Shown here: piece after piece, positions 28,871 through 54,452 of the stretch | Layout of the letters: the number at the start of each line of letters is the position of its first letter | Position numbering within the stretch: the stretch's first letter is position 1 | From: Pseudomonadota bacterium | GTDB taxonomy: Bacteria; Pseudomonadota; Alphaproteobacteria; Sphingomonadales; Sphingomonadaceae | Direction of reading: 5' to 3' | Assembly (NCBI GenBank): GCA_039818985.1 | Contig: JBCBSU010000001.1 | Coordinates: 1,018,367 to 1,082,366, forward strand | DNA: 64,000 nucleotides | Notes under the pieces: generated by a model | The model's database searches: none | Seen by the model: the letters and a program-made list of their open reading frames with translations, nothing else | What the model was told of the DNA's origin: nothing | Translations under genes and position numbers: made by a program

Positions 28871-29638
28871 TTACTCTGCCTGTGCGCTTTCCTCCTTTGT
28901 CTCTTCCTGGCCAAGCACACCGGATCCGAAATCGATGACGAAGTTGATCGGAATATCGGCAATGGCGGTGTCGCCGTCATAATTGGCTGGCAAAGGTTCC
29001 AGTTGGGTTACCATTTTCGCTACGCGGCGGATTTCGAAATCGAGCCGACGATGGCCTGTGGACTTGACGATCTCGGCCTTTAGCACCTTTCCCGAGCGGG
29101 CGACGGTGACGCGCAATATGCCCGTGCCTTGGCGCTTATTGTCGATGGCGCTTTGCGGGTAGCGAAGATTCTGGGTGTATTGTTGCTGCGATATGCGGAT
29201 AAAGCGCTCGCTCAGTCGCGTGATCTTGGCCGGAGGTTTGGGTTTTGGGGCTGCCTTTTGAGGTGGCGGTGGTGGCGGTACGGCTTTGGCACCGGTCCCC
29301 GATGACAATGGCCCGCCTTCGGACGATGCAGCGACAGCGCGTGGCTGATCCGGCGGTGCCGGTGGCGGGGCATCATCGGCGCGTTCGGAGGGCACCACCG
29401 GGTCTTCGGTGGTTTCGACACCCGGAGGAGGTGGTTCGAGCCGTCGCGCCGGTGCGCCCAGCGCGATCACCGTTTCCTCCAGTGCTTCCGCCATTTCCGG
29501 CAGGGCGCTACGCGAATATTGCCAGATGGCGAAGAACAATATCGTGGCGGAGAAAACCAGCCCCAGGCCCCAATGCCATTCGCGCGGAACCGGCGGTCGA
29601 TCCGGGCTGATCGCGCTGCTCCACTGGTCGGCATACAT
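28871..29638 (-). CDS. tonB: Energy transducer TonB
   Basis: This 255-residue protein carries proton-motive energy from the inner membrane to outer-membrane receptors. The N-terminal anchor lies near residues 22-43 (HWGLGLVFSATILFFAIW). A Pro-rich periplasmic region contains PPPPPPQKAAPKPKPPAK. The C-terminal domain has RYPQSAIDNKRQGTGILRVTVARSGKV, here divided as the TonB_C strand pair, and ends near PINFVIDFG. It is last in the exbB-exbD-exbD-tonB operon, 19 bases after the second exbD. Confidence 0.9.
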   Translation of the reverse strand: MYADQWSSAISPDRPPVPREWHWGLGLVFSATILFFAIWQYSRSALPEMAEALEETVIALGAPARRLEPPPPGVETTEDPVVPSERADDAPPPAPPDQPRAVAASSEGGPLSSGTGAKAVPPPPPPQKAAPKPKPPAKITRLSERFIRISQQQYTQNLRYPQSAIDNKRQGTGILRVTVARSGKVLKAEIVKSTGHRRLDFEIRRVAKMVTQLEPLPANYDGDTAIADIPINFVIDFGSGVLGQEETKEESAQAE

Positions 29639-29657: not shown

Positions 29658-30068
29658 CTAGCCTTCGCGCGCCCGACCGACAGTCAGCAGCACGATATAT
29701 TCCGCTCCAGCCTGGCGGATATCCTCCATGATTGCGATGACCTCTTTCGCTTCCGCCTCGGAATCGGGTTTGAGCTGGATCAGGCCATCGGGCTTTTCGT
29801 TCAGCGCCTGGCGGATACGCGCGGTCAGCTGGTCGCGCGCTATCGGTTCATCGCCCAGCGCAACCTTGCCGTCCTCGCTGACCAGAATGACAAAATCCTT
29901 GACGTCGCCGCGCTTGTCGATGCCCGATTGTGCCGGCGCAACCGGAAAGGCATCCTCTTTTTCGATGGTGCCGGCGAGCATGAAGAACACCAGCAGGATG
30001 AACACCACGTCTATCAGCGGTGTGATGTTGATCAATTCCCCCTTGGGCCGGTAGCGTTCGATTCTCAT
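29658..30068 (-). CDS. exbD: ExbD/TolR family protein (second copy)
   Basis: This 136-residue protein works in the ExbB-ExbD proton channel. It has a short cytoplasmic start, one transmembrane helix beginning INITPLIDVVFILLVFFMLAG with the proton-carrying Asp in PLIDVVF, and a periplasmic domain (VSEDGKVALGDEPIARDQL). It overlaps the preceding exbD by four bases. Two ExbD proteins beside one ExbB suggest a heteromeric channel. It is distinct in sequence from the first copy. Confidence 0.92.
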   Translation of the reverse strand: MRIERYRPKGELINITPLIDVVFILLVFFMLAGTIEKEDAFPVAPAQSGIDKRGDVKDFVILVSEDGKVALGDEPIARDQLTARIRQALNEKPDGLIQLKPDSEAEAKEVIAIMEDIRQAGAEYIVLLTVGRAREG

Positions 30069-30478
30069 GGCGCTACCACCTCTTCTTCAGGCGGTGAGAA
30101 GGTAACCGCAAAAGCCCCCGAATCGCGCGTCAGCTGATAGATGTCGATCGCCTTCTGCATGGTGACATCGGACATTGGCCGGATCAGAAAAGTGCGGCCC
30201 GGGTCGATCTCGGTGAGCGCGGCGACATCGGCTTCGATCTGCTGCGCCGATGCAGGTTCGCCGTCATATTCCAGATCGCCATTGCTTTTGATGCGAATGA
30301 CGATGGCGGCGGTCGGGTCCTGCACCACCTCCATGTCCTGCGGTGTATCGATGCCGATGAGGCGGAATCGGGCGAAATTGGTGGTCAGCATGAAGAACAC
30401 CAGCAATATGAAAACAACGTCGATCAGCGGCGTGACATTGAGCAGGGTGATATTTCGGCGTTTGCGCCGGAGGTTCAT
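30065..30478 (-). CDS. exbD: ExbD/TolR family protein (first copy)
   Basis: This 137-residue protein has an N-terminal cationic segment (NLRRKRRNITLLNVTP), a transmembrane helix with the conserved Asp in PLIDVVFILLVFFML, and a periplasmic domain containing DGEPASAQQIEADV. It probably pairs with the second ExbD in the ExbB pentamer. Start and stop overlap its neighbours by four bases each, so exbB-exbD-exbD are translationally coupled. Confidence 0.92.
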   Translation of the reverse strand: MNLRRKRRNITLLNVTPLIDVVFILLVFFMLTTNFARFRLIGIDTPQDMEVVQDPTAAIVIRIKSNGDLEYDGEPASAQQIEADVAALTEIDPGRTFLIRPMSDVTMQKAIDIYQLTRDSGAFAVTFSPPEEEVVAP

Positions 30479-31284
30479 GTGACTGGGCTCTGGGCCGGTT
30501 GTTCAGGCGCGTCGGCAGCAGCGGCGCCGTTGGGCCGGTTTTCGGGGACTGCTTCATAGAGCGGGATGGTGAAGACCTGGGTCGCGGCATCTTCCATCCG
30601 CTGCGCCTCAACATCGACCGAGCGCTGTAGCCAGGTGAACAATACCGCTGCCGGGATGGCCACTGCCAAACCTGCCGCAGTGGTAAGCAGGGCTTCCCAG
30701 ATACCGCCAGCAAGCACTGCCGGCTCGATACTGTCGCCGACGCTTTCCATCTGCTGAAATGCCTCGATCATGCCTAGAACGGTACCGAGAAGGCCGAGCA
30801 GCGGCGCAATGGTGGCGATCAGGCTGAGCAGCGCCAGTCCGCGTTCCAGCCCATCGAGCTGGGCCTGGGCAATACGGGTGGTCTCCTCGCGGACAATGGT
30901 GTCGTTCATCTGCGGGTTGGCATTGCCGCGTACCGCTGCCGCCATCACCTTGGCCACGGGGCTGTGACGCGGTTCCAGGTCGTTTAACGCATCTGCATAG
31001 CGGCCATTGCGGATGACCGGTACAATGTCGCCCACAAAGGAAGAGCGCCCGACACCGAGGCGAGCAAACTGGACGAATTTCACCAGCGCCACCGCCAAAG
31101 CCAGCAGGGCCAAAACCGCCAATATCGCGATGATCGGCCCACCCACCTCGAACAGCCGTTGCACCGGTGACATCTCGCTGGCGACTGTTGCAGCTTGTGC
31201 CGGAGAGCTGAATAGCAGCAGTAAAGCGCAGCAGGATGTTGTCAAAGCGCGCCTGTTTTCGGGAATAGCCGTGTCTATGCGCAT
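30475..31284 (-). CDS. exbB: ExbB/TolQ/MotA family proton channel protein
   Basis: This 269-residue channel protein has an N-terminal signal-like hydrophobic segment (SCCALLLLFSSPAQA) followed by three membrane helices: residues about 52-74, 160-185 and 205-228. The conserved SLIATIAPLLGLLGTVLGMIEAF and GGIWEALLTTAAGLAVAIPA motifs are present. It is first in the operon and is divergent from the ECF transporter gene with 133 bases between starts. Confidence 0.92.
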   Translation of the reverse strand: MRIDTAIPENRRALTTSCCALLLLFSSPAQAATVASEMSPVQRLFEVGGPIIAILAVLALLALAVALVKFVQFARLGVGRSSFVGDIVPVIRNGRYADALNDLEPRHSPVAKVMAAAVRGNANPQMNDTIVREETTRIAQAQLDGLERGLALLSLIATIAPLLGLLGTVLGMIEAFQQMESVGDSIEPAVLAGGIWEALLTTAAGLAVAIPAAVLFTWLQRSVDVEAQRMEDAATQVFTIPLYEAVPENRPNGAAAADAPEQPAQSPVT

Positions 31285-31417
31285 GATTCTTACCCGCCCA
31301 CCTCTTGAATGTGTCGTCTCTAGGCGTGATTGACGTAATTTTTATTACAAAATAACGACAGCCGCTTGCATATATTCTTCATATCTCTGTCATACCGCCA
31401 TGAAACAGTGATCTTTC

Positions 31418-33694
31418 ATGGCGGTCGATACACTCTCTTCGCAACGGAAAACCGGGCAGGGCAACAGTGGGGGGACACCGCTTTCCGGCGCACGTTTTGT
31501 AATGATTCTCGGCGTCACTGCAGTGCTGTTTTTTCTCGGCCTGATCCCGCTTGAGGCAATCCCCGAAATCCCCGTCGATATCGACAGCAAGCCGTTTTTT
31601 ATCCCGTTGGTGCTGGCGGCTTTACTGCCGACGGGGCGGCCGGGCTTTGCCGTGGCGCTGGGCGCGTCGCTTGGCGAGGGGCTGCGCGACATGATGGAGG
31701 GCTATGAACTCGACGATCCGATCGGCTTTGTCGGCTACGCTGTCGGGTTTGCTTTGGCGAGTTATGTCATTGGTACACGCGCCCGTAGCCCGCTATTCCT
31801 CACTATAGGGGCCATTGTCGCAGCGTTCGTTCAGGCGCTTTTCGAGGCATCTTCCTTCCTGCTGTTCGGCACCGAAAGCATGGGCATCGTCATTCAGAGC
31901 ACTATTGGCAATACCATCACCCATGGGGTGATCTGGGGTGCCATTCCGCTGCTGTTTCTGGTTCCTGCATTGCATGGCCGGTTTGAACGCTTTCTCGGTT
32001 TTGCGCCCAAGGGCTTCGAGGCAGATGTACCACCATTGCAGCCGCTGGTTCCGCGGCATCCCCCCGATCCGGATGCCTTGTTGAGTGCACAGGCCTTGCA
32101 ATTCCGCTATCCGGGTGAGACCGGACGGGCGCTGGCGGGCGTCGATATCGATATATTGCCGTTCCGGGTGACCGGACTGATCGGCCCATCACAGGCCGGC
32201 AAATCGACGCTGTGCAAGGTGCTGGCTGGCTTGGCCCCGCATGTCACCGGCGGTGAAATGACGGGCGAATTGCAGCAGCCGGCTACCGGACCGGAGGCTC
32301 TGGGTATCGGCTATGTCGCCGATGATGCAGCGGCGATGATGACCCGTACACGCGGACTGATGGAGGTGGCCTCGGCGCTGGCCGGATCCGGGTTATCCGT
32401 CGAAGAGATAGAATATAGAGCGCTCGACGCGCTCGACGCTGTGGGCATATCCGAGACCGAAGCGCGGCGCTATATCTGGGAATTGCCGCTGCAGAAACAA
32501 TCGCTTGTTGCGCTGGTAGCGGCGACGGTGACCAATCCGCATATCCTGATCATCGATGAATTGCCGTCGCATCTGGACAAGGTGGGCAAGACGATTTTGC
32601 GCCAGCAGATCGCCCGCGTTACCGCCAGGGGTGGTGCGGTGCTGCTGGTCGACAATGACACCGACCGACAGCTGGTGCATTGCGATCATATTGCCATTAT
32701 GCGCGATGGCCGGATTGTCGCTATGGGAGAGGCCCCGGATATATTGTCGAACGCGCAAATCCTGGAACCTCTGGGCCTTTCGCCGCCACTGGAGCTGACG
32801 AAAATGGCACAGCCTGATGGCAGTGAACAAGATGCGCCGCTGGCGACACCGCTACCGGCTGATGATCATGATCCATCCATAAGCACACCAATTCTCGAAC
32901 TGCGCGCGATCGCGATGGACAATGATGATGGTGAGCGCGTGTTGCGCGATTGCAGCCTGTCCGTCGCTGCTGGCCGGGTCATCGGCATTGCCGGTGCCTA
33001 TGGCGCGGGCAAGTCCGCTCTGGCACGGCTGATCGCCGGGCTCGCCAGGGCACGCAGCGGGCAAGTCATCGTTGGTGGCGACGATATCACCAACTGGTCA
33101 GTTGCGCAGCGGCTAGACCATGTGGCGACGGTCATCCATGCGCCGCATGCCTTTTTCAGCGAGCGCACTGTGGCGCTGGAAATGGTCCGGTCGCTGCGCA
33201 CAGCCGGCGACACTGGATCCGAAGACAGGCACCGCCAGGACGCGTTGGTGCAGCGATATGCAGCTATGCTCGACCTTGTGGATATACTCGACGCCGATCC
33301 ACTGGCGCTGCCGCCCGGCATCGCCAAGCGGGTCCAGGTCGCGGCCATGTTGACGCGTGGCGCGCCGCTGCTGGTGCTTGACCGGGCGCTGGCCAATCTC
33401 GACCCCAAAGGCGTCACGCTGATGCATGAGGCGCTGCGCAACTACGTCACCACCGGTGGCACGGTTTTGCTGCTCGATCACGACATGGATATTCTCAGTG
33501 AATGGGCCAACCAGTTGTTCTTCCTCTCCGACGGTAGGCTGAACCCGGCCGAGCCGCAGCATGATGCGCTGCTGAGCCAGATATCTCGCTTCGGCCTGGA
33601 CTGGCCGCATGCCGCTGATATTGCGGTGCAGAATGGGCGTCAGGCAATGACCCGTGCCGAATTGTTGGCGGTTGCTGATGGAGGCACAGCATGA
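31418..33694 (+). CDS. ECF-type transporter fusion: S-like membrane domain with two ATPase domains
   Basis: This 758-residue polypeptide joins three parts. Residues about 27-192 have five or six hydrophobic helices and resemble an ECF S (substrate-capture) component. Residues about 222-455 and 492-712 are ABC ATPase domains. The first has Walker A GPSQAGKST at 256-264, Walker B ILIIDE ending at E381, but Asn413 in place of the switch His and LPLQKQ at 356-361 in place of LSGGQ. The second has Walker A GAYGAGKSA at 526-534, His688 in LLDHDMD, but Arg656 in place of the catalytic Glu, and LPPGIAKR at 631-638 as signature. It overlaps ecfT by four bases. Substrate unknown. Confidence 0.88.
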   Translation: MAVDTLSSQRKTGQGNSGGTPLSGARFVMILGVTAVLFFLGLIPLEAIPEIPVDIDSKPFFIPLVLAALLPTGRPGFAVALGASLGEGLRDMMEGYELDDPIGFVGYAVGFALASYVIGTRARSPLFLTIGAIVAAFVQALFEASSFLLFGTESMGIVIQSTIGNTITHGVIWGAIPLLFLVPALHGRFERFLGFAPKGFEADVPPLQPLVPRHPPDPDALLSAQALQFRYPGETGRALAGVDIDILPFRVTGLIGPSQAGKSTLCKVLAGLAPHVTGGEMTGELQQPATGPEALGIGYVADDAAAMMTRTRGLMEVASALAGSGLSVEEIEYRALDALDAVGISETEARRYIWELPLQKQSLVALVAATVTNPHILIIDELPSHLDKVGKTILRQQIARVTARGGAVLLVDNDTDRQLVHCDHIAIMRDGRIVAMGEAPDILSNAQILEPLGLSPPLELTKMAQPDGSEQDAPLATPLPADDHDPSISTPILELRAIAMDNDDGERVLRDCSLSVAAGRVIGIAGAYGAGKSALARLIAGLARARSGQVIVGGDDITNWSVAQRLDHVATVIHAPHAFFSERTVALEMVRSLRTAGDTGSEDRHRQDALVQRYAAMLDLVDILDADPLALPPGIAKRVQVAAMLTRGAPLLVLDRALANLDPKGVTLMHEALRNYVTTGGTVLLLDHDMDILSEWANQLFFLSDGRLNPAEPQHDALLSQISRFGLDWPHAADIAVQNGRQAMTRAELLAVADGGTA

Positions 33695-34416
33695 AGGTCC
33701 CGACGCTGCACACAGGCCGTGACAATTTCTGGCGTCGCCGCGACCCTCGCGTTAAATGGGCGCTGTTCTTCATCTATATCCTGCTCATCTACCTTGCGCC
33801 CGACTGGCGCTGGATGGCGGCGGCCTCTGCTGCCGGCTTTGTCATCGCTCTCACGGCACAGGCACCAGTCGGCTGGCTGTTGTTGATGCTGATGATCCAG
33901 ATCCCCAATGTCACCGGGCTGGTGATTATCCCGATGCTGGGGAGCGATTTCAGCTTCAACGACGAATTCCGCTTCGGCTTGCATATGGGCTTTGGCTGGA
34001 TCGCGGCGATCCTGATCGGGATCAGCCTGTTTTCGACTATGGATGTCGACGAGTTGGTGCAGGGATTGCGCGGCCTCGGCCTTCCAGCACAGTTCGCCTT
34101 TGTCGTCGGCTATGCCTTTGTGCTGGTCTATCTCAGCTTCACCGATCTCAGCCGCATCTATGATTCGATGCGACTCAAGGGGATGGAGCTGCGCTGGCGT
34201 CAGCCAATCGGCTCGCTGCGCAATTTGATGACAATGTTCATTCCGGCGCTGATTACCATTGTGCGGCGCGGCGGCACCATGGCTGTTGCATTGGAGGCAC
34301 GCGGCTTTGATGCCAAAAGCGTGATGACGGCCCGTTCCGAGAAAATTGATTCTGCGGATATCGCCGTTCTGACAGCAGGCATAGCCTGCCTCGTGGGAGC
34401 CCTGGTGATGCGATAA
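33691..34416 (+). CDS. ecfT: ECF transporter transmembrane component EcfT
   Basis: This 241-residue membrane protein has helices at about residues 25-43, 48-70, 92-110, 130-150 and 222-240. The coupling-helix region carries the two Ala-Arg-Gly-like motifs typical of EcfT (MRLKGMELRWRQPIGSLRN and ALEARGFDAKSVMT). It would scaffold the two ATPase domains of the upstream fusion and the S-like domain. Its start overlaps the upstream stop (ATGA), so the two proteins are made together. It is convergent with the ICMT-like gene. Confidence 0.9.
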   Translation: MKVPTLHTGRDNFWRRRDPRVKWALFFIYILLIYLAPDWRWMAAASAAGFVIALTAQAPVGWLLLMLMIQIPNVTGLVIIPMLGSDFSFNDEFRFGLHMGFGWIAAILIGISLFSTMDVDELVQGLRGLGLPAQFAFVVGYAFVLVYLSFTDLSRIYDSMRLKGMELRWRQPIGSLRNLMTMFIPALITIVRRGGTMAVALEARGFDAKSVMTARSEKIDSADIAVLTAGIACLVGALVMR

Positions 34417-34442: not shown

Positions 34443-34982
34443 TTATCCATCGCGATGCTGAAGCACATCCGCTTCGGTGCGGATGCGGACAAACAATATC
34501 CCGGCATTGAGTAGCGAGAAGAGCAGGCTGATCCAGATATGGCCGAAGATCAGCGGTATAGTCATTATTTCGAGCGTCACCACCAGATAATTGGGGTGGC
34601 GGACAAAGCGAAATGGCCCATCGCTAATGCGTGGGAAATCGGGTGAGGAGATAATCCGCGTGGTCCAATAGGGACCAAGCGTCGCCAGCACCCAGAGCCG
34701 CATAGCCTGTAGCAGCAGGAACAGGACTGCCAGCGGCCAGATAATCGCCGCATCGGGCAGCGTGGCATAGACCAGCGTCAGCAGAAACGCGCCATGGATG
34801 ACGACCATCGCCGGATAATGCGACCGGCCATATTCCTGTGCCCCGCGTGCCAGCAATGCCCGCGTATTGCGCCGGGCATAGACCAGTTCACCCAGCCGCT
34901 GCATGATCAGCAGGGCGATAATGATCCCGGCGGCGGGCCAGTCGGGTTGCCAGGTCAGCGCGGCGGGCAGGGCATCAATCAT
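34443..34982 (-). CDS. Isoprenylcysteine carboxyl methyltransferase (ICMT) family protein
   Basis: This 179-residue membrane methyltransferase has about five hydrophobic segments. The ICMT core is seen in LGPYWTTRIISSPDFPRISDGPFRFVRHPNYLVV, split as the SAM-binding GPFRFVRHPNY motif and the preceding strand, and EIMTIPLIFGHIWIS. Its start overlaps the stop codon of the type III PKS gene. In Bacillus and Streptomyces, ICMT-like partners of type III PKSs (BpsB, SrsB) methylate alkylpyrones or alkylresorcinols, so the same role is likely here. Confidence 0.9.
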   Translation of the reverse strand: MIDALPAALTWQPDWPAAGIIIALLIMQRLGELVYARRNTRALLARGAQEYGRSHYPAMVVIHGAFLLTLVYATLPDAAIIWPLAVLFLLLQAMRLWVLATLGPYWTTRIISSPDFPRISDGPFRFVRHPNYLVVTLEIMTIPLIFGHIWISLLFSLLNAGILFVRIRTEADVLQHRDG

Positions 34983-36022
34983 GGATGAATCAGGCCGATA
35001 GCGCCGGTAAAGCCCGGCCCCAGCGCCGTCATCAGCAGCGGCCTGTCCTCTCCCGGCTCAGATTCGAGCAGTTGCTTGAGTATAAAATGCACTGTTGGTG
35101 AGGACATGTTGCCATAATCATTGAGCACTTTCCGTGTCGCGCAAAGACCGGTGTCGAGATGGTCGAAATAGCGCTCCAGCGCTTCGATCACCTTGCGTCC
35201 GCCCGGATGGCAGGCAGGTTGGCGCAGGCCGGTCCGCTCGAGCCCTTCACGGTCCAGAAAATCGTCGATAATGGGTGCAAATTCACGGGTGACGAAGGAC
35301 GGGATATCGCGTGCCAGGATGAGGCCGAGACCTGCCTCGTCAATATCCCAGCCCATCATATCGCGGGTGTCGGGCCAGGTTTTCTGTACCGATGCACCGA
35401 TGCGCGGCCCATATCCATTCGCGCTGATCACCATCGCACTGCCGCCATCGGCGAACAGCGCGGTCGATACTAGCCCCTTTTTGCTGAAATCACCCATGCG
35501 AAAGGCAAGCGAACACAGCTCGACGCAGAGCAGCAATATGATGGTATCGGGGCGGGCACAGGCCAGGTCCCGCGCCACTTGCAACCCCAATATGCCACCG
35601 GCACAGCCATAGCCGAACAGCGGCACCGTCTCGATATCATCGCGAAAGCCATGGTTTTTAAGCATCTGCGTCGGGATCGACGGCGTGGCAATTCCAGTCG
35701 ATGACACACAGACGATGATATCCACCATATCTGCTGTCATCTCGGCTTCGGCCAGCGCATCTGCGGCAAGGCGCGCCATCAGCTTTTCGGCTTCTTCGAG
35801 ATAGATGGCGTTGCGCTCGGGCCAGTGTGCCGGTGCCATATAGGCATCGGCGGGCCGGGCGATGTGCCGCGTTGCGATGCCGGCTCCGGCATAAACCTGT
35901 TCGATCTTTGCCGGCATGCCTCCGGGCATGCGCTGCGACATGCGGCTGACGACCTCATCCTGGGTGATCCGGTGCTCGGGCACCGCAGTGGCAATAGAAT
36001 GAATATGCGCAGCAGCTGACAT
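34979..36022 (-). CDS. Type III polyketide synthase
   Basis: This 347-residue chalcone/stilbene synthase-family enzyme makes polyketide rings by repeated condensation of malonyl-CoA on an acyl starter. The catalytic triad is visible: Cys140 in FGYGCAGGI, His272 in QPACHPGG and Asn305 in NDYGNMSSPT. The N-terminal IHSIATAVPEH and C-terminal TALGPGFTGAIGLI loops are conserved. The following ICMT-like methyltransferase gene overlaps by four bases. An alkylpyrone or alkylresorcinol lipid product is the likely outcome. It is divergent from trxB. Confidence 0.95.
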   Translation of the reverse strand: MSAAAHIHSIATAVPEHRITQDEVVSRMSQRMPGGMPAKIEQVYAGAGIATRHIARPADAYMAPAHWPERNAIYLEEAEKLMARLAADALAEAEMTADMVDIIVCVSSTGIATPSIPTQMLKNHGFRDDIETVPLFGYGCAGGILGLQVARDLACARPDTIILLLCVELCSLAFRMGDFSKKGLVSTALFADGGSAMVISANGYGPRIGASVQKTWPDTRDMMGWDIDEAGLGLILARDIPSFVTREFAPIIDDFLDREGLERTGLRQPACHPGGRKVIEALERYFDHLDTGLCATRKVLNDYGNMSSPTVHFILKQLLESEPGEDRPLLMTALGPGFTGAIGLIHP

Positions 36023-43049: not shown

Positions 43050-43353
43050 GCCCCGGGACGGCCGACACCTATCGGCAGGGCGCTTTGGAAATAGCAGTTT
43101 TTACCGGAAATCCGCTATTTCCAGAGCGTAACGATCCTGCATGGGGCTGGCAAATCTGCTAGGTTTACCGTTTGCGTGATGGCCGCCCCGATATGGCACA
43201 GACCATAGTTACCGGGAATCCGTCATACAATCCTAACGCTATGTTCACCCTTTCTGAGCATAGTGGGCATGATCGGCGAGGAGCAGCTTCATGGGGCAAG
43301 GGTCCATGGGGCAATTCTCCGCGCGTGTTGGGGAAATGAGACAGGACGTAAAA
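43050..43353 (+). other. Intergenic gap with a 15-base inverted repeat
   Basis: This gap separates the decarboxylase gene from the export-protein gene. CGCTTTGGAAATAGC at 43081-43095 and GCTATTTCCAGAGCG at 43114-43128 form a near-perfect inverted repeat with one mismatch and an 18-base loop. It has no T-run, so it may be a processing hairpin or a protein-binding site. The remaining sequence should hold the promoter of the export operon, but no consensus, including a sigma-54 type site, was found. Confidence 0.5.
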
Positions 43354-44028
43354 ATGATGGTCATTTCAGATATGTTTGCAGACTGGTCCGATATTCGGCG
43401 CATGATCATGCGCGTATTTGTCGCTGGTTTTGCAGTTCTGGCGCTGTCGGCCTGTGTTGGCGGATCCGGTGCCCAACTGCCGCCTGCTTCTTCGGTATCG
43501 GTGTCCGAAGGTCCGGGTGAGGATTATGTCATCGGGCCGCTCGACGAGCTGACCATCTTCGTCTGGCGCAATCCCGAGCTTGGCGCGACGGTGCAGGTGC
43601 GCCCCGATGGCCGGATCACGACGCCGCTGATTACCGATATGCCCGCTGTCGGCAAGACACCGACGATGCTGGCCCAGGATATTCGCCTGGCGCTGTCGGA
43701 ATATATTCAGGACCCGATCGTCTCGGTCACCGTGAGCAACTTCTCCGGCACCTTCTCGCAACAGGTGCGGATTGTCGGCGCCATCGAGAAGCCGGCATCG
43801 ATACCCTATCGCGCCAATATGACGTTGCTCGATGCCATGATCGCGGTCGGTGGCCTGTCGGAATTTGCCGCCGGAAACCGCGCCAAGCTGCTGCGCGTCG
43901 ATCCACAGACCGGACGCCAGCGTGAATATGCCGTGCGTCTGGGCGATTTGCTCAAGCGCGGCGACAGCCGGGCCAATGTGCTGTTGCAGCCGGGTGACGT
44001 CATCATCATCCCGGAAAGCGCATTCTGA
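43354..44028 (+). CDS. XrtA-system polysaccharide export lipoprotein
   Basis: This is a periplasmic or outer-membrane export protein of about 224 residues of the Wza type. A lipobox-like ALSAC follows the hydrophobic VFVAGFAVLAL. The polysaccharide-export domain begins GEDYVIGPLDELTIFVWRN, and a SLBB-like part contains RIVGAIEKPASIPYRANMTL. AGGACG lies about five bases before ATG 43354; a later ATG at 43402 gives a cleaner signal peptide, so the start is uncertain. It begins the export operon and would form the channel that takes the polymer across the outer membrane. Confidence 0.88.
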   Translation: MMVISDMFADWSDIRRMIMRVFVAGFAVLALSACVGGSGAQLPPASSVSVSEGPGEDYVIGPLDELTIFVWRNPELGATVQVRPDGRITTPLITDMPAVGKTPTMLAQDIRLALSEYIQDPIVSVTVSNFSGTFSQQVRIVGAIEKPASIPYRANMTLLDAMIAVGGLSEFAAGNRAKLLRVDPQTGRQREYAVRLGDLLKRGDSRANVLLQPGDVIIIPESAF

Positions 44029-44073
44029 GTGGAACGATAGGGGCTGCGGCAAGGAAGATTTCAAGGGGCTGGC

Positions 44074-45606
44074 ATGAACGGAATATATGACGAGTTCAGG
44101 ATAGCGGTGCACAGCGTCTGGCAACGGCGCTGGATGGCGCTGGCCGTCGCCTGGCTGCTGTGCGTGGCCGGCTGGCTCGTGGTGGCGATGATCCCCAACA
44201 GCTATCAGTCCAGCGCCCGGGTGCTGGTGCAGATGAAGTCCATCCTGCCCGATCAGTCGCGCAATGATGCGCTCGAGCGCCAGCGTCAGATCGATCAGGT
44301 CGAGCAGACGCTGACCTCGGCAGTCAATCTGGAGAAGGTCATTCGCGCCACAGATCTCGGCCAGAATGTGACCAGTCCGCGCGAGATGGAAGGCAAGGTC
44401 GAAGGACTTCGCGGCAATATCCAGGTGGTCTCCGAAGAGGACAGCTTCTTTGAAATCACCGCGACATCGGGCGATCCGAACCGTACTGACGGTGAGAATG
44501 CCCGGCTGGCGCGCGATATCGTGCAGAAACTGATCGATATCTTCATCGAGGAAAATCTGGCCGGCGGTCGCGGCGAGACCCGCAAATCGCTGCAATTCTA
44601 TGATGATCAGCTGGCGCTGCGTCAGAAGGAACTGGAAGACGCCGAAGCCCGGCGCGTTGCCTTCGAGACCGAGAATCTCGGCCTGCTGCCGGGTGTCGGA
44701 TCGATCAGCCAGCGTCTGGAAAGCGCGCGCGCCGAACTGCGCCAGATCGAGGTGCAGCTGTCATCGGCGCAAAGCGCATTGGCGGCGATCAATTCGCAGT
44801 TGAGCGGTACGCCGGCAACCATCGCCGCACCCGGCACTGGAGCAGGCGGCGCACAGGGATTGCTGGCCCAGGCGCAAAGCCAACTGGCGGCACTGCGGGC
44901 CCGTGGACTGAAGGACTCGCACCCCGATATTATCGCAATCAAGCGCCAGATTTCCGATTATGAGAACCGGGCAGCGACGGAGCCCGCGGGTACCGGCGGG
45001 GTCCAGACGCCCAATCCTGCCTATAGTTCGCTGCAGAGCATCCGTGCCGAGCGCCAGGCCAATGTCTCGGCACTGACCGCGCGCAAGCGGGCGCTGGAAA
45101 CAGATCTGGCCACCATGTCGGCGAAACAGGCGTCGGAACCGGGTGTTGCCGCCGAGCAGGCGCGCATCAATCGCGATTATGAGGTGCTCAAGGCGCAATA
45201 TGACCGCCTGCTCGAAGAGCGCGAGGAACTGCGGCTCAAGGGCCAGGTCGAGACCGAGACAGACGCGCTGCGCTTCAGCGTCCCCGATCCGCCGACCAGC
45301 CCGACAACGCCTGTCGCGCCCAACCGCCCGCTGTTGCTGCTGATGGTGCTGGCGGCCGGTATCTGTGGCGGCATCGGTGTCGCGTTCGCCCTTGCCCAGA
45401 TCAACGCCAGCTTCTCGACCGTAGGCAAGCTGGAGAAGGTTTCCGGCCTGCCGGTACTGGGAGCGATCTCACAGACACTGACCAACAAGCAGCGCGTGAT
45501 CCGCAAGCGTCGCATGCGCTGGTTCTATGGTGCCTCGGCAGCTCTGGTCGGGGTGTTGGGCATATTGCTCGTGGTTGAATTCATCCAGCGTGGCTCTGTG
45601 GTTTGA
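44074..45606 (+). CDS. XrtA-system polysaccharide chain-length determinant
   Basis: This 510-residue inner-membrane protein is of the Wzz/GumC type. A membrane helix lies near residues 25-43 (MALAVAWLLCVAGWLVVAMI) with the Wzz start PNSYQSSARVLVQMKSILPDQ. A long periplasmic coiled-coil fills residues about 160-400, including LEDAEARRVAFETENL. A second helix lies near 413-437 and a third near 480-503. It works with the tyrosine kinase downstream, overlapping its 5' region. Confidence 0.92.
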   Translation: MNGIYDEFRIAVHSVWQRRWMALAVAWLLCVAGWLVVAMIPNSYQSSARVLVQMKSILPDQSRNDALERQRQIDQVEQTLTSAVNLEKVIRATDLGQNVTSPREMEGKVEGLRGNIQVVSEEDSFFEITATSGDPNRTDGENARLARDIVQKLIDIFIEENLAGGRGETRKSLQFYDDQLALRQKELEDAEARRVAFETENLGLLPGVGSISQRLESARAELRQIEVQLSSAQSALAAINSQLSGTPATIAAPGTGAGGAQGLLAQAQSQLAALRARGLKDSHPDIIAIKRQISDYENRAATEPAGTGGVQTPNPAYSSLQSIRAERQANVSALTARKRALETDLATMSAKQASEPGVAAEQARINRDYEVLKAQYDRLLEEREELRLKGQVETETDALRFSVPDPPTSPTTPVAPNRPLLLLMVLAAGICGGIGVAFALAQINASFSTVGKLEKVSGLPVLGAISQTLTNKQRVIRKRRMRWFYGASAALVGVLGILLVVEFIQRGSVV

Positions 45607-45617
45607 GGAAGAAGAAG

Positions 45618-46628
45618 ATGACCCGATATTCACCACTGCCATCGGTGCCGAAGGATGGCGACTCGCTGCTCGAGCGGGCGTCGCAAAAATTCGATCTGGG
45701 CGATATCCATCGCGCCAGCAGCGCGGCCACGCCTATCGAAACGCCTGCCGAAGATGCGACAGCGGACGAAGTCCGGGGCCTGGCATCTGATCGGGACCCG
45801 CAAACAAGCAAGCCTGTGGTCGAGATGCAGCCAGTGCACGCTCGGGCTCCGCAGCCAGCCCCGGCTCCGCGCAGCAATCGCCGGGTACAGGAAATCGACC
45901 GCGACGCACTGCGCGCCGCCAATTTCATCATTCCCGATGGTCCGGTAAGCGGGCTTTCCGAGGAGTTCCGCATCGTCAAACGACAGCTGCTGCATAATGT
46001 CGAACAGGATATTGGCAGCGACGGGAAGCCGCATAGCGGCTGGGCAAGACGCATATTGATTTGTTCGGCCAAGTCGGGCGACGGCAAGACATTCTGTGCC
46101 ATCAATCTGGCGTTGTCGATCGCCGCCGAACGCGATTATAGCGTTGTGCTGGTCGATGCCGACTTTGCCAAACCGGGCGCGAGCCGGATTTTCGGCCTTG
46201 ATGGCGAACTCGGCCTGATGGATGCACTGAGCAATCCCGAGGTGTCGATCAATGACTGCATCGTTGAAACCGATATTCCCGGTTTCTCGGTGCTGCCCGC
46301 CGGCAAGCAAACCAATAACGATACCGAATATCTGGCGTCATCGCGCACCAGCAGCCTGTTGTCGCAGCTCGCGCTTGATGATCCGCGCCGGATATTGATT
46401 TTCGATTCACCGCCGACCCTGTCGGCCTCACCGGCATCGGAACTGGCGCGTCATGTCGGCCAGGCGCTGATGGTGGTGCGTGCCGACAAGACCAGCGAGT
46501 CCGCGCTCAGCGATGCGCTGACGCTGATTTCTCGCTGCGACACCATCCAGCTGTTGCTCAATGGGGCGAAATTCTCGCCCACAGGCCGCAGTTTCGGATC
46601 CTATTATGGCTATGGAGAAGAGCAATGA
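45618..46628 (+). CDS. XrtA-associated tyrosine autokinase
   Basis: This 336-residue BY-kinase resembles CpsD/CapB and regulates polymer assembly. A low-complexity N-terminal region of about 105 residues precedes the ATPase. The Walker A motif is ICSAKSGDGKTFCAINLA (residues 148-165), Walker A' is VVLVDADFAKPG and Walker B is RILIFDSPP. The tail has a Tyr cluster, SFGSYYGYGEEQ, the usual site of autophosphorylation. GAGGAAG directly before ATG 45618 supports this start. It overlaps the next gene by four bases. Confidence 0.93.
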   Translation: MTRYSPLPSVPKDGDSLLERASQKFDLGDIHRASSAATPIETPAEDATADEVRGLASDRDPQTSKPVVEMQPVHARAPQPAPAPRSNRRVQEIDRDALRAANFIIPDGPVSGLSEEFRIVKRQLLHNVEQDIGSDGKPHSGWARRILICSAKSGDGKTFCAINLALSIAAERDYSVVLVDADFAKPGASRIFGLDGELGLMDALSNPEVSINDCIVETDIPGFSVLPAGKQTNNDTEYLASSRTSSLLSQLALDDPRRILIFDSPPTLSASPASELARHVGQALMVVRADKTSESALSDALTLISRCDTIQLLLNGAKFSPTGRSFGSYYGYGEEQ

Positions 46629-48313
46629 CCCGTTTCCCCAGAGGTCGTCTTGCACTGAAATCCCTGATGATCGGACTGGCACTGCCGTGCTGCATTGCAC
46701 CCGTAGCAGCGCAGCAACTGCCGGCAGGCGGAGATGATCTGACGCTGGGTGACGACAATGTCACCACCAGTGAACGTCGGAGCCAGGCCCAGATCACCCC
46801 CTATATCGAGGTTGGTCAGGTGCTGTTGGCCGATCTTAACAATGACGATGTGCTGACCTACAGCGTCATTGCCGCCGGTGTCGACGCCGTTGCATCGGGG
46901 CCACGCGCCGCCGGCCAGATCAGTGTGCGCTATGAGCGCCGGATCGACTGGGACGACGATCTGGGCGATCAGGATGTGTTGAGCGGTATCGCTCGTGGCG
47001 CAGTCCAGGTGGTGCCCAATTTCCTCAGCCTGGAAGCCGGGGGTATTGCTACCCGCAGCCGTATCGATCTGCGCGGTGCACAGCCAACCAACCTTGTCGG
47101 CGATGCTGATAACGTCACCCAGGTCTATTCGATCTTTGCCGGGCCGAGCATCACCACCAATATTGATACGCTGTTTCTCAATGCCAATTACCGCTTTGGC
47201 TATACCTCGATCGAGAGCGATACCGATATTGCCATCGCTCCGGGCCAGCCGCAGCTCGACATTTTCGATGAGAGTACCAGCCATTTCGCCAATGCCACGA
47301 TCGGCCAGGCACCGAGGACTACCGACCTGCCGTTCGGTTGGGCGCTGAGCGCCGGATATCGCCGTGAAGATACAACCCAGCTCGACCAGCGCTTCGAGGA
47401 TCTGTTCCTGCGCGGCGATCTCACCGTTCCGGTATCGCCTACTTTGGCTCTGGTCGGGGGTGTCGGCTATGAAAATGTCGAAGTCAGCGAGCGTGATGCG
47501 CTGCGCGATGATGAAGGCAATCCGCTGGTCGGCAATGATGGCCGGCTGATCACCGATCCGGATTCGCCAAGGCTGCTGTCTTTCGAGGCCGATGGCCTGA
47601 TCTGGGATGTCGGGGTGCTGTGGCGCCCGAGCAGTCGTACTTCGCTCGAGGCGCGCTATGGCCGGCGCTTTGGCGGTGAGACCTATTTCGGCAATTTCAG
47701 CTGGCAGGCAAGCTCGCGCACGCTGGTCAGCGTCAATGTCTTTGACACTGTAGCCGGCTTTGGCTCGCGGCTGGTGGACAATGTTGCGCTGCTGCCGACC
47801 GAGTTTACCAGCTTCCGTAACCCGCTGACCGGTGACCTGAATGGCTGTGTTATCGGCGGCGATGATAATCTATGCTTCAACGATGCGCTGCAATCGGCGG
47901 CGTCTTCGGTGTTCCGCCTGCGCGGCGTGAACGCCATCGTGTCGACCGAGATCAACAACTGGCAAACCGGATTGGCGCTTGGCTATAACCGCCGCCGCTT
48001 CCTCAATTCCAATGCCGGTGTTCTGGCCGATATTGCCGGCGGGGTTGATGAAAATTATTTTGCCAACTTCTTCGCATCGACACAGATTGATCAGGCATCG
48101 GCGTTCAACGCCAATGTCTATGCCAATTATTTCGACAGTGCCTTTATCGATGGCGGCAATGCCTTTGCCGTTGGTGCCAATGCCGCCTATCTGCGCAACC
48201 TGACGCGCCGGTTGCGCGCCACGGCGGCGCTGGGTCTCGACAATTTCGATGTCGACGGCGTCGAGAACCAGCTGATCGGCTCGGCACTGGTAGGATTGCG
48301 TTATTCGTTCTGA
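46625..48313 (+). CDS. XrtA-system outer-membrane beta-barrel protein
   Basis: This 562-residue exported protein of the TIGR03016 type is found in exosortase A loci. A signal peptide (LKSLMIGLALPCCIAPVAAQ) precedes an OMP-like sequence rich in alternating strands with aromatic girdle residues, such as LEARYGRRFGGETYFGNFSWQASSRTL, separated into strands. It ends in GLRYSF, the usual C-terminal Phe of outer-membrane barrels. It may be the outer-membrane route for polymer export or a structural element of the secretion complex. It overlaps the kinase gene by four bases. Confidence 0.88.
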   Translation: MTRFPRGRLALKSLMIGLALPCCIAPVAAQQLPAGGDDLTLGDDNVTTSERRSQAQITPYIEVGQVLLADLNNDDVLTYSVIAAGVDAVASGPRAAGQISVRYERRIDWDDDLGDQDVLSGIARGAVQVVPNFLSLEAGGIATRSRIDLRGAQPTNLVGDADNVTQVYSIFAGPSITTNIDTLFLNANYRFGYTSIESDTDIAIAPGQPQLDIFDESTSHFANATIGQAPRTTDLPFGWALSAGYRREDTTQLDQRFEDLFLRGDLTVPVSPTLALVGGVGYENVEVSERDALRDDEGNPLVGNDGRLITDPDSPRLLSFEADGLIWDVGVLWRPSSRTSLEARYGRRFGGETYFGNFSWQASSRTLVSVNVFDTVAGFGSRLVDNVALLPTEFTSFRNPLTGDLNGCVIGGDDNLCFNDALQSAASSVFRLRGVNAIVSTEINNWQTGLALGYNRRRFLNSNAGVLADIAGGVDENYFANFFASTQIDQASAFNANVYANYFDSAFIDGGNAFAVGANAAYLRNLTRRLRATAALGLDNFDVDGVENQLIGSALVGLRYSF

Positions 48314-48391
48314 TGCCGAACCGCGCTGCATGCGGTATATGGCGATAGAGCCCGGTCGCGACGGCGCGCCGGGACAAGGGAGACAGGGATT

Positions 48392-49579
48392 ATGTATGAG
48401 AGCTATTATGGACTGGACGCCCGTCCGTTTCAGCTGACGCCCGATCCGCAATATTATTTCGACAGCCGTACCCATCGCAAGGCGCTGTCCTATCTCGGCT
48501 ATGGTCTGGCCCAGGGTGAGGGCTTTATCGTCATCACCGGAGAAATCGGCTCGGGCAAGACAACGCTGGTCGGTCATCTGATGCAGACTATTGATCGCGA
48601 GCGGCTGACCGTCGCGCAGATCGTCACCAGCCAGCTATCGGGCGATGACCTGCTGAAAATGGCGGCGCAGCAATTCGGTATTGCCGGCGAAGGCATGGAC
48701 AAGGCAGCGCTGCTGCGTGCGCTGGAAAACCATTTTCAGGCCGAGGCACGCGCCGGACGGCGTTGCCTGCTGATCGTTGACGAAGCACAGAATCTCGACC
48801 GCACAGCGCTGGAACAGCTGCGTATGTTGTCCAATTTCCAGCTTGGCAATCAGGCGTTGTTGCAGATATTCCTGCTCGGCCAGCCGGAATTTCGCGACAT
48901 GCTGCGGGGCGATTCTTCGCTCGAGCAACTGCGCCAGCGGATCATTGCGACGCACCATCTCGAAGGCATGAGCGAGGATGAGGTGCAGCCTTACATCAAG
49001 CACCGCCTGGCGCGGGCAGGTGGCAATGGCCGACCGACTTTCAGTGACGAGGCAATTGCCGATATCGCCGCTGAAACCAGCGGTATTCCGCGCGCGCTCA
49101 ACCGGCTGATGAGCCGGGTGCTGCTGATGGGCGCTATCGAGGAAGCCGACCATATCGATGCCGTATTGGTCGAGCGGGTTATTGCCGATCTTGCCGAAGA
49201 CCTGCCCCAAGCAGCAGACGAAGCAGCGTTCGAGCCCGTGGATAGTGTCACCGAGGCAGAGCCGGAAGAGCAGGAAGAACCGATGCAGGTGGCGCAGGCG
49301 GTATTGCAGTCCACCGTCACGCCTGCGATCCTGGACAATGATGCTGAGGGCGTTGTGGCCGAGGAAGGCGAAACAGATGCGGAAGACGAGACCGCAATCG
49401 AAGCTGTATCTGCAGCCGCACCGTCCATTGACCCGGCTGACTTTCGCGCTGCGATAGACAGGATTTGCGCCCTTGAGGCGCGCATGGCAGAACAGGAACA
49501 CTCGCTTCGCCAATTACTGGTGCGTCTGGTGCGCTGGGTCGAGAGCGAGGATAATGACAACCGGCGCGACGCCGCCTGA
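48392..49579 (+). CDS. XrtA-associated ATPase (ExeA/GspA-like)
   Basis: This 395-residue AAA ATPase is of the secretion-ATPase type seen in PEP-CTERM loci. It starts MYESYYGLDARPFQLTPDPQ, Walker A is ITGEIGSGKTTLVGHL near residues 48-63, Walker B is RCLLIVDEAQNLDRTA, and the sensor-like ALNRLMSRVLLMG is present. The C-terminal 110 residues are an acidic, low-complexity extension that ends in a helix (ICALEARMAEQEHSLRQLL). GGGAGACAGGG-type sequence precedes the ATG. It follows the barrel gene and precedes the deacetylase gene. Confidence 0.92.
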   Translation: MYESYYGLDARPFQLTPDPQYYFDSRTHRKALSYLGYGLAQGEGFIVITGEIGSGKTTLVGHLMQTIDRERLTVAQIVTSQLSGDDLLKMAAQQFGIAGEGMDKAALLRALENHFQAEARAGRRCLLIVDEAQNLDRTALEQLRMLSNFQLGNQALLQIFLLGQPEFRDMLRGDSSLEQLRQRIIATHHLEGMSEDEVQPYIKHRLARAGGNGRPTFSDEAIADIAAETSGIPRALNRLMSRVLLMGAIEEADHIDAVLVERVIADLAEDLPQAADEAAFEPVDSVTEAEPEEQEEPMQVAQAVLQSTVTPAILDNDAEGVVAEEGETDAEDETAIEAVSAAAPSIDPADFRAAIDRICALEARMAEQEHSLRQLLVRLVRWVESEDNDNRRDAA

Positions 49580-49593
49580 ACGGGATAACGCCC

Positions 49594-50481
49594 ATGCTGC
49601 ACGGCCCGGACATAGTGCCCAAGCCATTCACCAAGGGTCCGATTCCCAATGGGCTGTCGGTCGATATTGAAGACTGGTTCCAGGTCGGTGCGTTTGAGAA
49701 CACCATCAGTCGTGATGACTGGGACAGCCTGCCGCATCGTGTCGAAGCCAATAGCGATGCGGTGCTGGCGCTGTTTGCGGAAGCCGATGTCAAGGCGACC
49801 TTCTTCATCCTGGGATGGGTGGCCGAACGCTATCCGGCCCTGATCCGCCGCATCGCCGATGCCGGGCATGAAATCGCCAGCCATGGCTGGGCGCATGACC
49901 GGGTGTTCACCATGGACGCCAAGACCTTTGCCGAGGATATCAGACGGACGCGCAAGGTGCTTGAAGATGCTGGCGGCCAGAAGGTCACCGGCTATCGCGC
50001 ACCCAGCTTTTCGATCGACAGCCGTACGCCTTTTGCTCACCAGGTGCTGGCCGAACAGGGCTATGCTTATTCGTCCAGTGTCGCCCCGGTGATGCATGAT
50101 CATTACGGCTGGCCGGAAGCGCCGCGCTTTGCCTGGCGTCCGGTGGAAGGTTCGTCACTGGTCGAATTGCCGGTAACCACGGTACAGCTTAATGGCCGCA
50201 ATTTTGCAGCCGGTGGTGGCGGATTTTTCCGGCTGTTCCCCTATGCGCTGTCGCGCTGGGCGATCAACCGGGTGAACCGTCACGATGCAGAACCGGCAAT
50301 ATTTTATTTTCACCCATGGGAAATCGATCCGGGACAGCCGCGCGTCGATGATGCGCCGCTGAAATCGCGGCTGCGCCATTATGCGCGGCTCGATGCCATG
50401 GCCGAGAAGCTGCGCCGTCTGGCACGCGATTTTGCCTGGGGCCGTATCGATACGCTGGCGGCGCTGCGGGTGCCGCAATGA
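49594..50481 (+). CDS. XrtA-system polysaccharide deacetylase
   Basis: This 295-residue NodB-fold deacetylase removes acetyl groups from the polymer or its intermediates. The catalytic and metal-binding Asp pair is in GLSVDIEDWFQVGAF, and the metal-binding His pair in HEIASHGWAHDRVFTM. VTGYRAPSFSID and IFYFHPWEIDPGQPRV are also typical. It lies 14 bases after the ATPase gene and overlaps the FemAB gene by four bases. Length and layout match the exosortase A-associated deacetylase type. Confidence 0.92.
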   Translation: MLHGPDIVPKPFTKGPIPNGLSVDIEDWFQVGAFENTISRDDWDSLPHRVEANSDAVLALFAEADVKATFFILGWVAERYPALIRRIADAGHEIASHGWAHDRVFTMDAKTFAEDIRRTRKVLEDAGGQKVTGYRAPSFSIDSRTPFAHQVLAEQGYAYSSSVAPVMHDHYGWPEAPRFAWRPVEGSSLVELPVTTVQLNGRNFAAGGGGFFRLFPYALSRWAINRVNRHDAEPAIFYFHPWEIDPGQPRVDDAPLKSRLRHYARLDAMAEKLRRLARDFAWGRIDTLAALRVPQ

Positions 50482-51596
50482 CCATGGCCTTTGACCATAA
50501 TCCTGAAGCTTTGGAAGCCTGTCGCATCGATATTGTCGCGGCCGATGATGCAGTGGCGCGTGCTGCCTGGTCGGATTATGTCGCGGATCATAAGGAAGCG
50601 ACTGCCTTTCACCGGCTTGAATGGATCGATGCCATCACGGAAGCGACCGGGCACGAAAGCTGCCTGCTGATGGCGCGGACTGCAGCAGAGCCGGGCGATG
50701 ATGCGGTGATATGCGGGGTGCTGCCTTGTCATATCATCCATTCACCGCTCTTCGGGCGGGCACTGGTGTCCTGCGGTTTTGCGGTGGATGGCGGGGTGCT
50801 GGCTGATGATCCGGTGGCAGCCGAGGCGCTGGTGGCATCAATGTGGAAGCTGGCCGAACGGCGCAGCTGCCCGACGGCAGAATTGCGTGGCGGCATGGTG
50901 CCTCTCGACCCTTCCTGGCATCGCAATACCGATAGTTATCTTGGCTTTGTGCGCGCTCTTGCCGAAAATGATGAAGCGGAACTGCTTGCCATTTCGCGCA
51001 AGCAGCGCGCCGAGGTGCGCAAGGCGATCAAATTGCGCGATACCGGCGACCTGACCGTCGAAACCGGCGCGGGACAGCGTGATCGTGACTGGCATTATCG
51101 CGTTTACAGCGAGAGTGTACGCAACCTCGGCACGCCGGTTTTCCCGCGCGCGCTGTTTGCCGCGGTGCTCGATCATTTTGGCGAAGATGCCGATATACTG
51201 AGCGTGCTGCACCAGGGCGAACCGGTCGCTTCGGTGCTTAGCCTCTATCACCGCGGCACGGTGATGCCCTATTGGGGCGGCGGTGTCTGGGATGCGCGGC
51301 GGCTGCGTGCCAATGACCTGATGTATTATGCGCTGATGAATCATGCGCGCGATCACGGCTGTCATCGTTTCGATTTCGGTCGTTCCAAGACCGGTACCGG
51401 TGCTGCCGCATTCAAGAAGAATTGGGGCTTTGACGGTGTATCGTTGACCTATGCCGTGCGCACCGCCAGCGGTGCCGAGCCGCGCGACACCAATCCCCTG
51501 AGTCCGAAATATCAGGCCCGGATCCGCCTGTGGCAGAAACTGCCTTTGTCGCTTGCGAACCGTTTGGGGCCGATGATCGCCAAGGGTCTGGGCTAA
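50478..51596 (+). CDS. FemAB-family protein of the XrtA system
   Basis: This 372-residue FemAB-like acyl/aminoacyltransferase has a double GNAT fold. Conserved parts are FHRLEWIDAITEATGHE, RKQRAEVRKAIKLRDTG, GEPVASVLSLYHRGTVMPYWGGG and GCHRFDFGRSKTGTGAAAFKKNWGF. It matches the FemAB protein that is standard in exosortase A loci. ATG at 50478 overlaps the deacetylase stop; an ATG at 50484 is also possible. It may transfer an amino-acyl or acyl group to the polysaccharide. Confidence 0.92.
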   Translation: MTMAFDHNPEALEACRIDIVAADDAVARAAWSDYVADHKEATAFHRLEWIDAITEATGHESCLLMARTAAEPGDDAVICGVLPCHIIHSPLFGRALVSCGFAVDGGVLADDPVAAEALVASMWKLAERRSCPTAELRGGMVPLDPSWHRNTDSYLGFVRALAENDEAELLAISRKQRAEVRKAIKLRDTGDLTVETGAGQRDRDWHYRVYSESVRNLGTPVFPRALFAAVLDHFGEDADILSVLHQGEPVASVLSLYHRGTVMPYWGGGVWDARRLRANDLMYYALMNHARDHGCHRFDFGRSKTGTGAAAFKKNWGFDGVSLTYAVRTASGAEPRDTNPLSPKYQARIRLWQKLPLSLANRLGPMIAKGLG

Positions 51597-51611
51597 GGCA
51601 GCGGGCAGGCT

Positions 51612-54418: not shown

Positions 54419-54452
54419 TCATTTGCGCTTCCTTCAGCCGGAGACCTGACCG

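Follow-up and report, generated by a model that had tools for sequence, protein, structure and literature searches.

A putative S component fused to both ATPases in a sphingomonad ECF-type transporter, and its possible role in phosphate starvation

Organization of the locus

The window, that is, the whole stretch of 64,000 nucleotides analysed here, carries on its plus strand a single open reading frame of 758 codons with no internal stop (31418..33694). Its product begins with a membrane domain and continues into two ECF-type ABC ATPases (A-A'), and the Pfam family ABC_tran matches it in two stretches (E 3e-30). The ATPases occupy residues 219-709, with ABC1 at residues 219-445 (32072..32752, plus strand) and ABC2 at residues 491-709 (32888..33544, plus strand). 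The top NCBIfam model for this part is ECF_ATPase_2 (E 7.7e-53), at a score of 179 bits that falls under the equivalog cut-off of 330 bits. The N-terminal membrane domain, referred to here as the S part, lies at about residues 20-200 (31475..32017, plus strand). The next gene on the same strand (33691..34416) encodes a separate EcfT of 241 aa, which belongs to the CbiQ family PF02361 (E 2.3e-17, above the Pfam cut-off) and overlaps the fusion gene by four bases, the ATGA common to both ORFs. It is the only CbiQ-family match in its own genome.

An earlier note on this DNA had described an S-like domain and both ATPases in one uninterrupted polypeptide, accompanied by an EcfT gene with a four-base overlap, and had called the system a dedicated transporter. 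This description holds: the same architecture is seen in two further loci, where the frame is also intact (see below), and the joint encoding of S, A-A' and T together with the single CbiQ-family match fits a dedicated system. Where it had counted five or six N-terminal helices, we see several overlapping hydrophobic stretches, and a model of low confidence has six helices. It mentioned neither the Ton cassette beside the ECF genes nor the changes in the ATP sites that are described below.

Divergent from the ECF genes, and sharing the promoter gap with them, is an extra Ton cassette on the minus strand. It encodes in this order ExbB (30475..31284; MotA_ExbB, E 3.5e-31), a first ExbD (30065..30478), a second ExbD (29658..30068) and TonB (28871..29638; TonB_C, E 1.5e-12). 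The two ExbD proteins are 29% identical to each other.

Conservation and distribution in the host family

We compared the genome of the window (G000) with two congeners, G276 and G230, and with a genome from another genus of the family, G465. Fusion proteins of identical layout are encoded in G276 (locus L004, 9534-11747, 737 aa, 69% identity to the window protein) and in G465 (locus L008, 8350-10599, 50% identity). In L008 the likely start of the fusion gene is at 8410, inside the end of tonB (8417). The fused state is present in all three host-family loci that were read, and three intact fusions rule out a sequencing error that joined two genes. The dN/dS values between the window and G276 (S part 0.045, ABC1 0.18, ABC2 0.16, EcfT 0.13, Ton genes 0.08-0.13) are rough, since dS is near or above 1. 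The S part is 88% identical between the two, and EcfT 83%. The S membrane domain is under strong purifying selection, and purifying selection also rules out a pseudogene.

The fusion is rare among the sampled genomes. With the S part as query, relatives turned up in 2 of the 296 genomes sampled from the order; 2 of 3 genomes of the genus have relatives, and a search with EcfT gave relatives in 3 of 397 genomes of the family. The own genome is counted each time and the samples, including that of the phylum, overlap. In the phylum, a search with the S profile gave two matches among 398 genomes, one of them the own genome. The other (G657) was set aside as false, because it sits in a frame that we take, from its translation, to be a PepN-like aminopeptidase. 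The third congener, G230, has no match to the S part or to EcfT. Viral contigs gave no match, and the single match of the genome-contig search (L003) translates into an SsuB-like ABC protein.

The Ton cassette and the ECF genes occur together in G000, G276 and G465. The G276 locus has EcfT and a divergent exbB-exbD-exbD-tonB cassette as in the window, and in L008 exbB, exbD, exbD, tonB, the fusion gene and ecfT are consecutive and collinear on one strand. In G230, the 20 kb around the polyketide synthase and ICMT genes described below contain no S, EcfT or Ton gene, and its top ExbD match is weak (E 5e-8, 28%). In these four genomes, the ECF and Ton gene sets thus share one pattern of presence and absence. 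In the family, relatives of the second ExbD with at least 50% identity occur in 3 of 149 genomes, own included. A related Ton cassette (ExbD 50%) is found in G155, where the 20 kb read contain no ECF genes. This cassette, in the region L083 1050-13275, has the order exbB-exbD-exbD-tonB on the minus strand and is followed on the same strand by genes for proteins that resemble V-type ATPases; the names of the cassette genes and of the V-type ATPase-like genes are presumed from their translations.

On the other side of the ECF genes, EcfT is adjoined by genes for an ICMT-like methyltransferase and a type III polyketide synthase (34443-36022, minus strand), a possible alkylresorcinol pair. The pair is kept in G276, where one additional frame precedes it, and in G230, where it is found without the ECF genes. 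Farther along, positions 43291-56348 hold what we take, judging by translation, to be a polysaccharide export cluster with an XrtA-type exosortase.

Relatives with separate genes

A tblastn search of 72,556 plasmid records with the fusion protein gave near-full-length matches in Rubrobacter radiotolerans, Halorussus and Haladaptatus; it also matched ordinary ABC proteins. Haloarchaea and Actinomycetota were covered through plasmid records alone. At E 1e-3, the S family is present in five of the 72,556 records, of which four are distinct, as the proteins of H. aquaticus and of H. limi plasmid 4 share accessions. In all five, S is a gene of its own, annotated as hypothetical protein, and is followed by an A-A' gene and then by EcfT. 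Identity in the S family is 39-51% for Rubrobacter and the haloarchaea. In Rubrobacter, the S and A-A' genes are in the same frame with 42 bases between them. The fusion is probably derived from the separate-gene state, because the latter is the broader one.

Some further observations concern the same records. A match on a Vibrio plasmid (H4) was rejected, as it carries another S family, PF07155. In the haloarchaeal loci EcfT is followed by a gene for a hydrophobic protein of 148 aa (L010 13271-13717, L011 13194-13640, L013 13172-13618) that has no Pfam match. The Rubrobacter ECF locus, like the G155 cassette, has V-type ATPase genes nearby.

Identity of the N-terminal domain

We read the N-terminal domain as a putative S component because its relatives are encoded by a separate gene directly before A-A' and T. 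Residues 1-224 match no NCBIfam family and no Pfam family except COE1_HLH, by chance (E 0.24). In a seven-row alignment of the S family, 48 columns are invariant; 10 of these hold acidic and 4 hold basic residues, and His169 is invariant too. None of its members matches a CbiM/NikM model in Pfam or NCBIfam. AlphaFold, run from one sequence, gave a model of the S domain alone with six helices at a pLDDT of 54, and one of the whole fusion protein at a pLDDT of 42. A Foldseek search with the S-domain model (pLDDT 54) yielded no match below E 0.001, and no S component was among the best 50 of 78 matches.

A profile comparison of the S family by hhalign gave E 0.18 against one riboflavin-type S sequence. 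With four riboflavin-type S sequences, the values were 0.034 in local mode, over 15-18 columns, and 0.044 in global mode, where the alignment is collinear over the full length; EcfT and the 148-aa protein, used as controls, gave E 0.23-0.58. The resemblance of the S family to riboflavin-type S components is suggestive only. The proposal of an S-like domain is backed by the gene order in the relatives and not by AlphaFold, Foldseek or hhalign, none of which produced a significant S-fold match.

In ECF systems described before, a small-xxx-Ala motif in helix 1 of S docks on EcfT; the motif is not strict, and YkoE has a variant of it (PMC5037267, PMC11109136). The corresponding position reads AxxxA in three haloarchaeal rows of our alignment, AxxxG in Rubrobacter, and LxxxA or VxxxA in the fused proteins.

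Loss of consensus motifs in the ATP sites

In the fused proteins, neither ATP site has kept all of its consensus motifs. In the window protein, ABC1 has Walker A and the Walker B Glu, while its LSGGQ signature is replaced by LPLQK and its H-loop His by Asn. ABC2 keeps Walker A and the H-loop His; its Q-loop Gln is replaced by His and its Walker B Glu by Arg656, and its signature reads LPPGI. The proteins of the haloarchaea and Rubrobacter have one complete composite site, in which Walker A, Glu and His of ABC2 face LSGGQ of ABC1, and a second that is without Glu and His. A complete consensus site of this kind, combining ABC2 and the ABC1 signature, is present in L009, L010, L011 and L013. The ATP sites form a natural series, from one complete site in archaea and Rubrobacter to none in the fused proteins.

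The three fused proteins share part of these changes. The ABC1 signature is LPLQK, LPAQK or LPARA, and the ABC2 Q-loop Gln is His in all of them. The window protein and that of L004 have Arg or Lys for the ABC2 Walker B Glu, and their ABC1 has a Glu not seen in the proteins of archaea and Rubrobacter. The ABC2 site of L008 keeps Glu and His and misses just the facing signature and the Q-loop Gln. Both Walker A lysines and both Walker B aspartates are retained. Since consensus motifs are lost in both composite sites, strong ATP-driven transport is not assured.

It is conceivable that a tethered S-A-A' protein with degenerate ATP sites is a sensor and not a pump, either as a transceptor that reports substrate to the cell or because the ATPases bind ATP and do no more. 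In the window protein, Glu, His and LSGGQ are not found together in any composite ATP site, and the S fold is described as common to the membrane domains of receptors (PMC11109136). However, EcfT is kept at 83% identity under purifying selection, none of the Walker A lysines or Walker B aspartates is missing, and L008 retains the ABC2 Glu and His. A sensor appears very unlikely to us.

Phosphate genes beside the haloarchaeal operons

The block around the Haladaptatus operon contains genes for two PhoU proteins, one PhoX, three PhoD-family phosphatases and one 5'-nucleotidase; three endonuclease/exonuclease/phosphatase-family genes in the block are left out of this count. All seven are among the 20 genes nearest the operon (ten per side), out of 177 other genes, and these names occur nowhere else among the 181 features of the plasmid. 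The hypergeometric probability of such clustering is 8e-8, a post hoc value, as the gene list was picked after viewing. On Halorussus limi plasmid 3, the sole annotated PhoU among 163 features is the next gene downstream of the operon. In H. aquaticus and on H. limi plasmid 4, genes for PstS, PstS, PstC, PstA, PstB and PhoU are divergent from the operon and separated from it by one small hypothetical gene. The phosphate association is found in all four haloarchaeal records (three of them distinct) with differing surroundings; the three distinct loci represent two genera of one family, the Haladaptataceae. Arsenic genes are near the operon in three of the four records, Haladaptatus being the exception. 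The Rubrobacter copy has no annotated phosphate gene in the 26 kb read.

The haloarchaeal neighbourhoods suggest a role in phosphorus starvation. According to the earlier note, the substrate cannot be told from the sequence; strictly speaking this stands, but the archaeal neighbourhoods do point in one direction.

Two other kinds of cargo have to be weighed against this direction. The first is a vitamin or cofactor, as ECF systems are usually described as importers of micronutrients and vitamins (PMC5037267, PMC11109136). The phosphate context of the haloarchaeal operons would then be a matter of plasmid islands and not of function, which would agree with the Rubrobacter copy and its surroundings free of annotated phosphate genes. 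A recurrence in 4 of 4 haloarchaeal records, three distinct, in different surroundings speaks against this view, and inspection by eye showed no vitamin gene next to the transporter. A riboswitch had been named in the earlier note as something to look for; Rfam finds none in the window, where the single match over the gathering score is one tRNA, and a riboswitch-controlled vitamin importer was rejected on this ground. We consider an ordinary vitamin importer unlikely.

The second is a metal, which the acidic character of the S family makes the chief rival. The bias among the invariant charged residues (10 acidic and 4 basic in 48 columns) is odd for a binding site for the free phosphate anion. 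PhoX and PhoD phosphatases fold with their metal in the cytoplasm before export. An importer within the phosphate response could bind a divalent cation through the acidic S residues, to which His169 can be added, and supply the metal that loads phosphatases of the PhoX/PhoD type; PhoX and PhoD-family genes do adjoin the Haladaptatus operon. An ECF transporter for nickel and cobalt, with NikM as S component, is also on record (PMC5037267). On the other hand, neither Pfam nor NCBIfam has a metal S model that the S family matches, inspection by eye showed no metal-uptake gene next to the host-family loci, and the genes that flank three of the four haloarchaeal records are for arsenic and not for metal uptake. 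We consider a metal importer of this kind unlikely as well.

A Pho-box-like site in the promoter gap

A matrix scan of the window revealed, in the gap between the ECF genes and exbB, a Pho-box-like site of three 7-base half-sites with 11-base spacing that faces the ECF genes (31365..31393, plus strand) and a second one that faces exbB (31344..31361, minus strand). Half-sites of 7 bases spaced by 11 are also found upstream of pstS in three congeners. Among the 127,944 three-half-site positions of the window, the one at 31365-31393 scores best, and the runner-up is on the opposite strand of the same gap. The longest stretch of the gap that is conserved with L004, CTTCATATYTCTGTCAT, is the second-ranked two-half-site match of the 20-kb L004 locus, and the last two half-sites of 31365-31393 are conserved there. 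The matrix was built from nine half-sites chosen by eye upstream of three pstS genes, so that p-values are lenient: of 1000 column-permuted matrices, 13 (two half-sites) and 30 (three) equalled the joint rank in window and L004, 74 and 144 were as good in the window alone, and 56 and 89 in L004 alone. With the same matrix, no good Pho-like site was found before the operon of L008. The distance from the end of the box to the ATG is 24 bases in both the window and L004, so that there is hardly room for a leader. PhoB control of the ECF genes via this candidate Pho box has modest support.

In the three congeners, the pattern CTGTCAT-N4-CTGTCAT with two mismatches occurs at 23, 25 and 32 sites, and the reversed pattern at 9, 3 and 4. 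In G276, one of the sites is some 190 bases upstream of the pstS match. We took 30 of the 80 sites as loci and judged the 13 with a plus-strand site, none of which is visibly upstream of a recognisable phosphate gene. In G000, tandem Pho-box-like half-sites (C1:1106180-1106208) lie about 100 bases before a frame that we assume to be HisI-like.

Proposed function

Most likely, the locus encodes a dedicated ECF importer that belongs to the phosphate-starvation response and has a Ton complex of its own; as a single reading, the phosphate role accounts best for neighbours and promoter. We would give an even chance to a group I (dedicated) ECF-type importer with S fused N-terminally to A-A' that serves phosphorus starvation. 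As in other systems of group I, an EcfT is present (PF02361, E 2.3e-17), the ATPases are paired (two ABC_tran stretches), and S, A-A' and T are encoded together and mutually dedicated, both in the host-family loci and in the plasmid relatives. An S component on a separate polypeptide is found in the relatives and not in the window, L004 or L008, and these three also have no complete consensus ATP site.

In ECF systems, S is described as binding the substrate outside, EcfT as coupling and A-A' as driving transport (PMC5037267, PMC11109136). Here, the adjacent Ton complex would energise an outer-membrane receptor so that the substrate reaches the periplasm, where the S domain would bind it. EcfT would couple ATP-driven movements of A-A' to a tilting of S, with release of the substrate inside. 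The cargo may be a compound that contains phosphorus, or else a cation required along with it. Because a linker of about 20 residues tethers S, it would not be exchangeable for another S; it could at most let go of EcfT while remaining attached to A-A'.

A more far-reaching version is that this would be the first ECF importer for phosphate starvation, shared by archaea, Rubrobacter and the host family and built on a new S family. Its host-family form would have S-A-A' as one molecule with non-consensus ATP sites and a Ton complex of its own, and uptake of one phosphorus source across outer and inner membrane would be a single genetic unit in which S never leaves the motor. We put this forward tentatively and think it rather doubtful as a whole. 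If the phosphate link is true, a transporter family known for vitamins and metals would gain a further class of nutrient, and an S family for which Pfam and NCBIfam have no model would gain a function.

Comparison with known systems

Among the matches listed in a search of the open literature, there was no phosphate-linked ECF system, no S-A-A' fusion and no ECF-ExbB operon. What is new here is the haloarchaeal phosphate context, the linked Ton cassette, the Pho-box-like site and the degraded ATP sites. A close likeness is to YkoEDC, a group I system of the thiamine type, in which S, a fused A-A' and T form a dedicated operon as in the unfused relatives; in contrast to the window protein, S and A-A' are separate proteins there, and the system is described as riboswitch-controlled (PMC5037267), whereas Rfam finds no riboswitch in the window. 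No sequence match of the S family to known S families was found, in a comparison that covered families other than YkoE. Group II modules (EcfA-EcfA'-EcfT) also have a CbiQ-family EcfT and two related ABC ATPases, but they work with exchangeable S components; the window system has one S, covalently attached, and its genome has no second CbiQ-family match. The metal transporters NikMNQO and CbiMNQO share an EcfT in PF02361, but the S family matches no CbiM/NikM model.

In each ECF cycle, S is described as bound to the motor and expelled from it (PMC11109136). A natural S tied to both ATPases makes this release model testable: with such a tether, either full release is dispensable or release from EcfT alone is enough. 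The Ton cassette has a known counterpart as well. The Ton operon of the sphingomonad strain SYK-6 resembles it in having one TonB, one ExbB and two ExbD, but its order is described as tonB1-exbB1-exbD1-exbD2 (PMC8599685), as opposed to exbB-exbD-exbD-tonB in the window.
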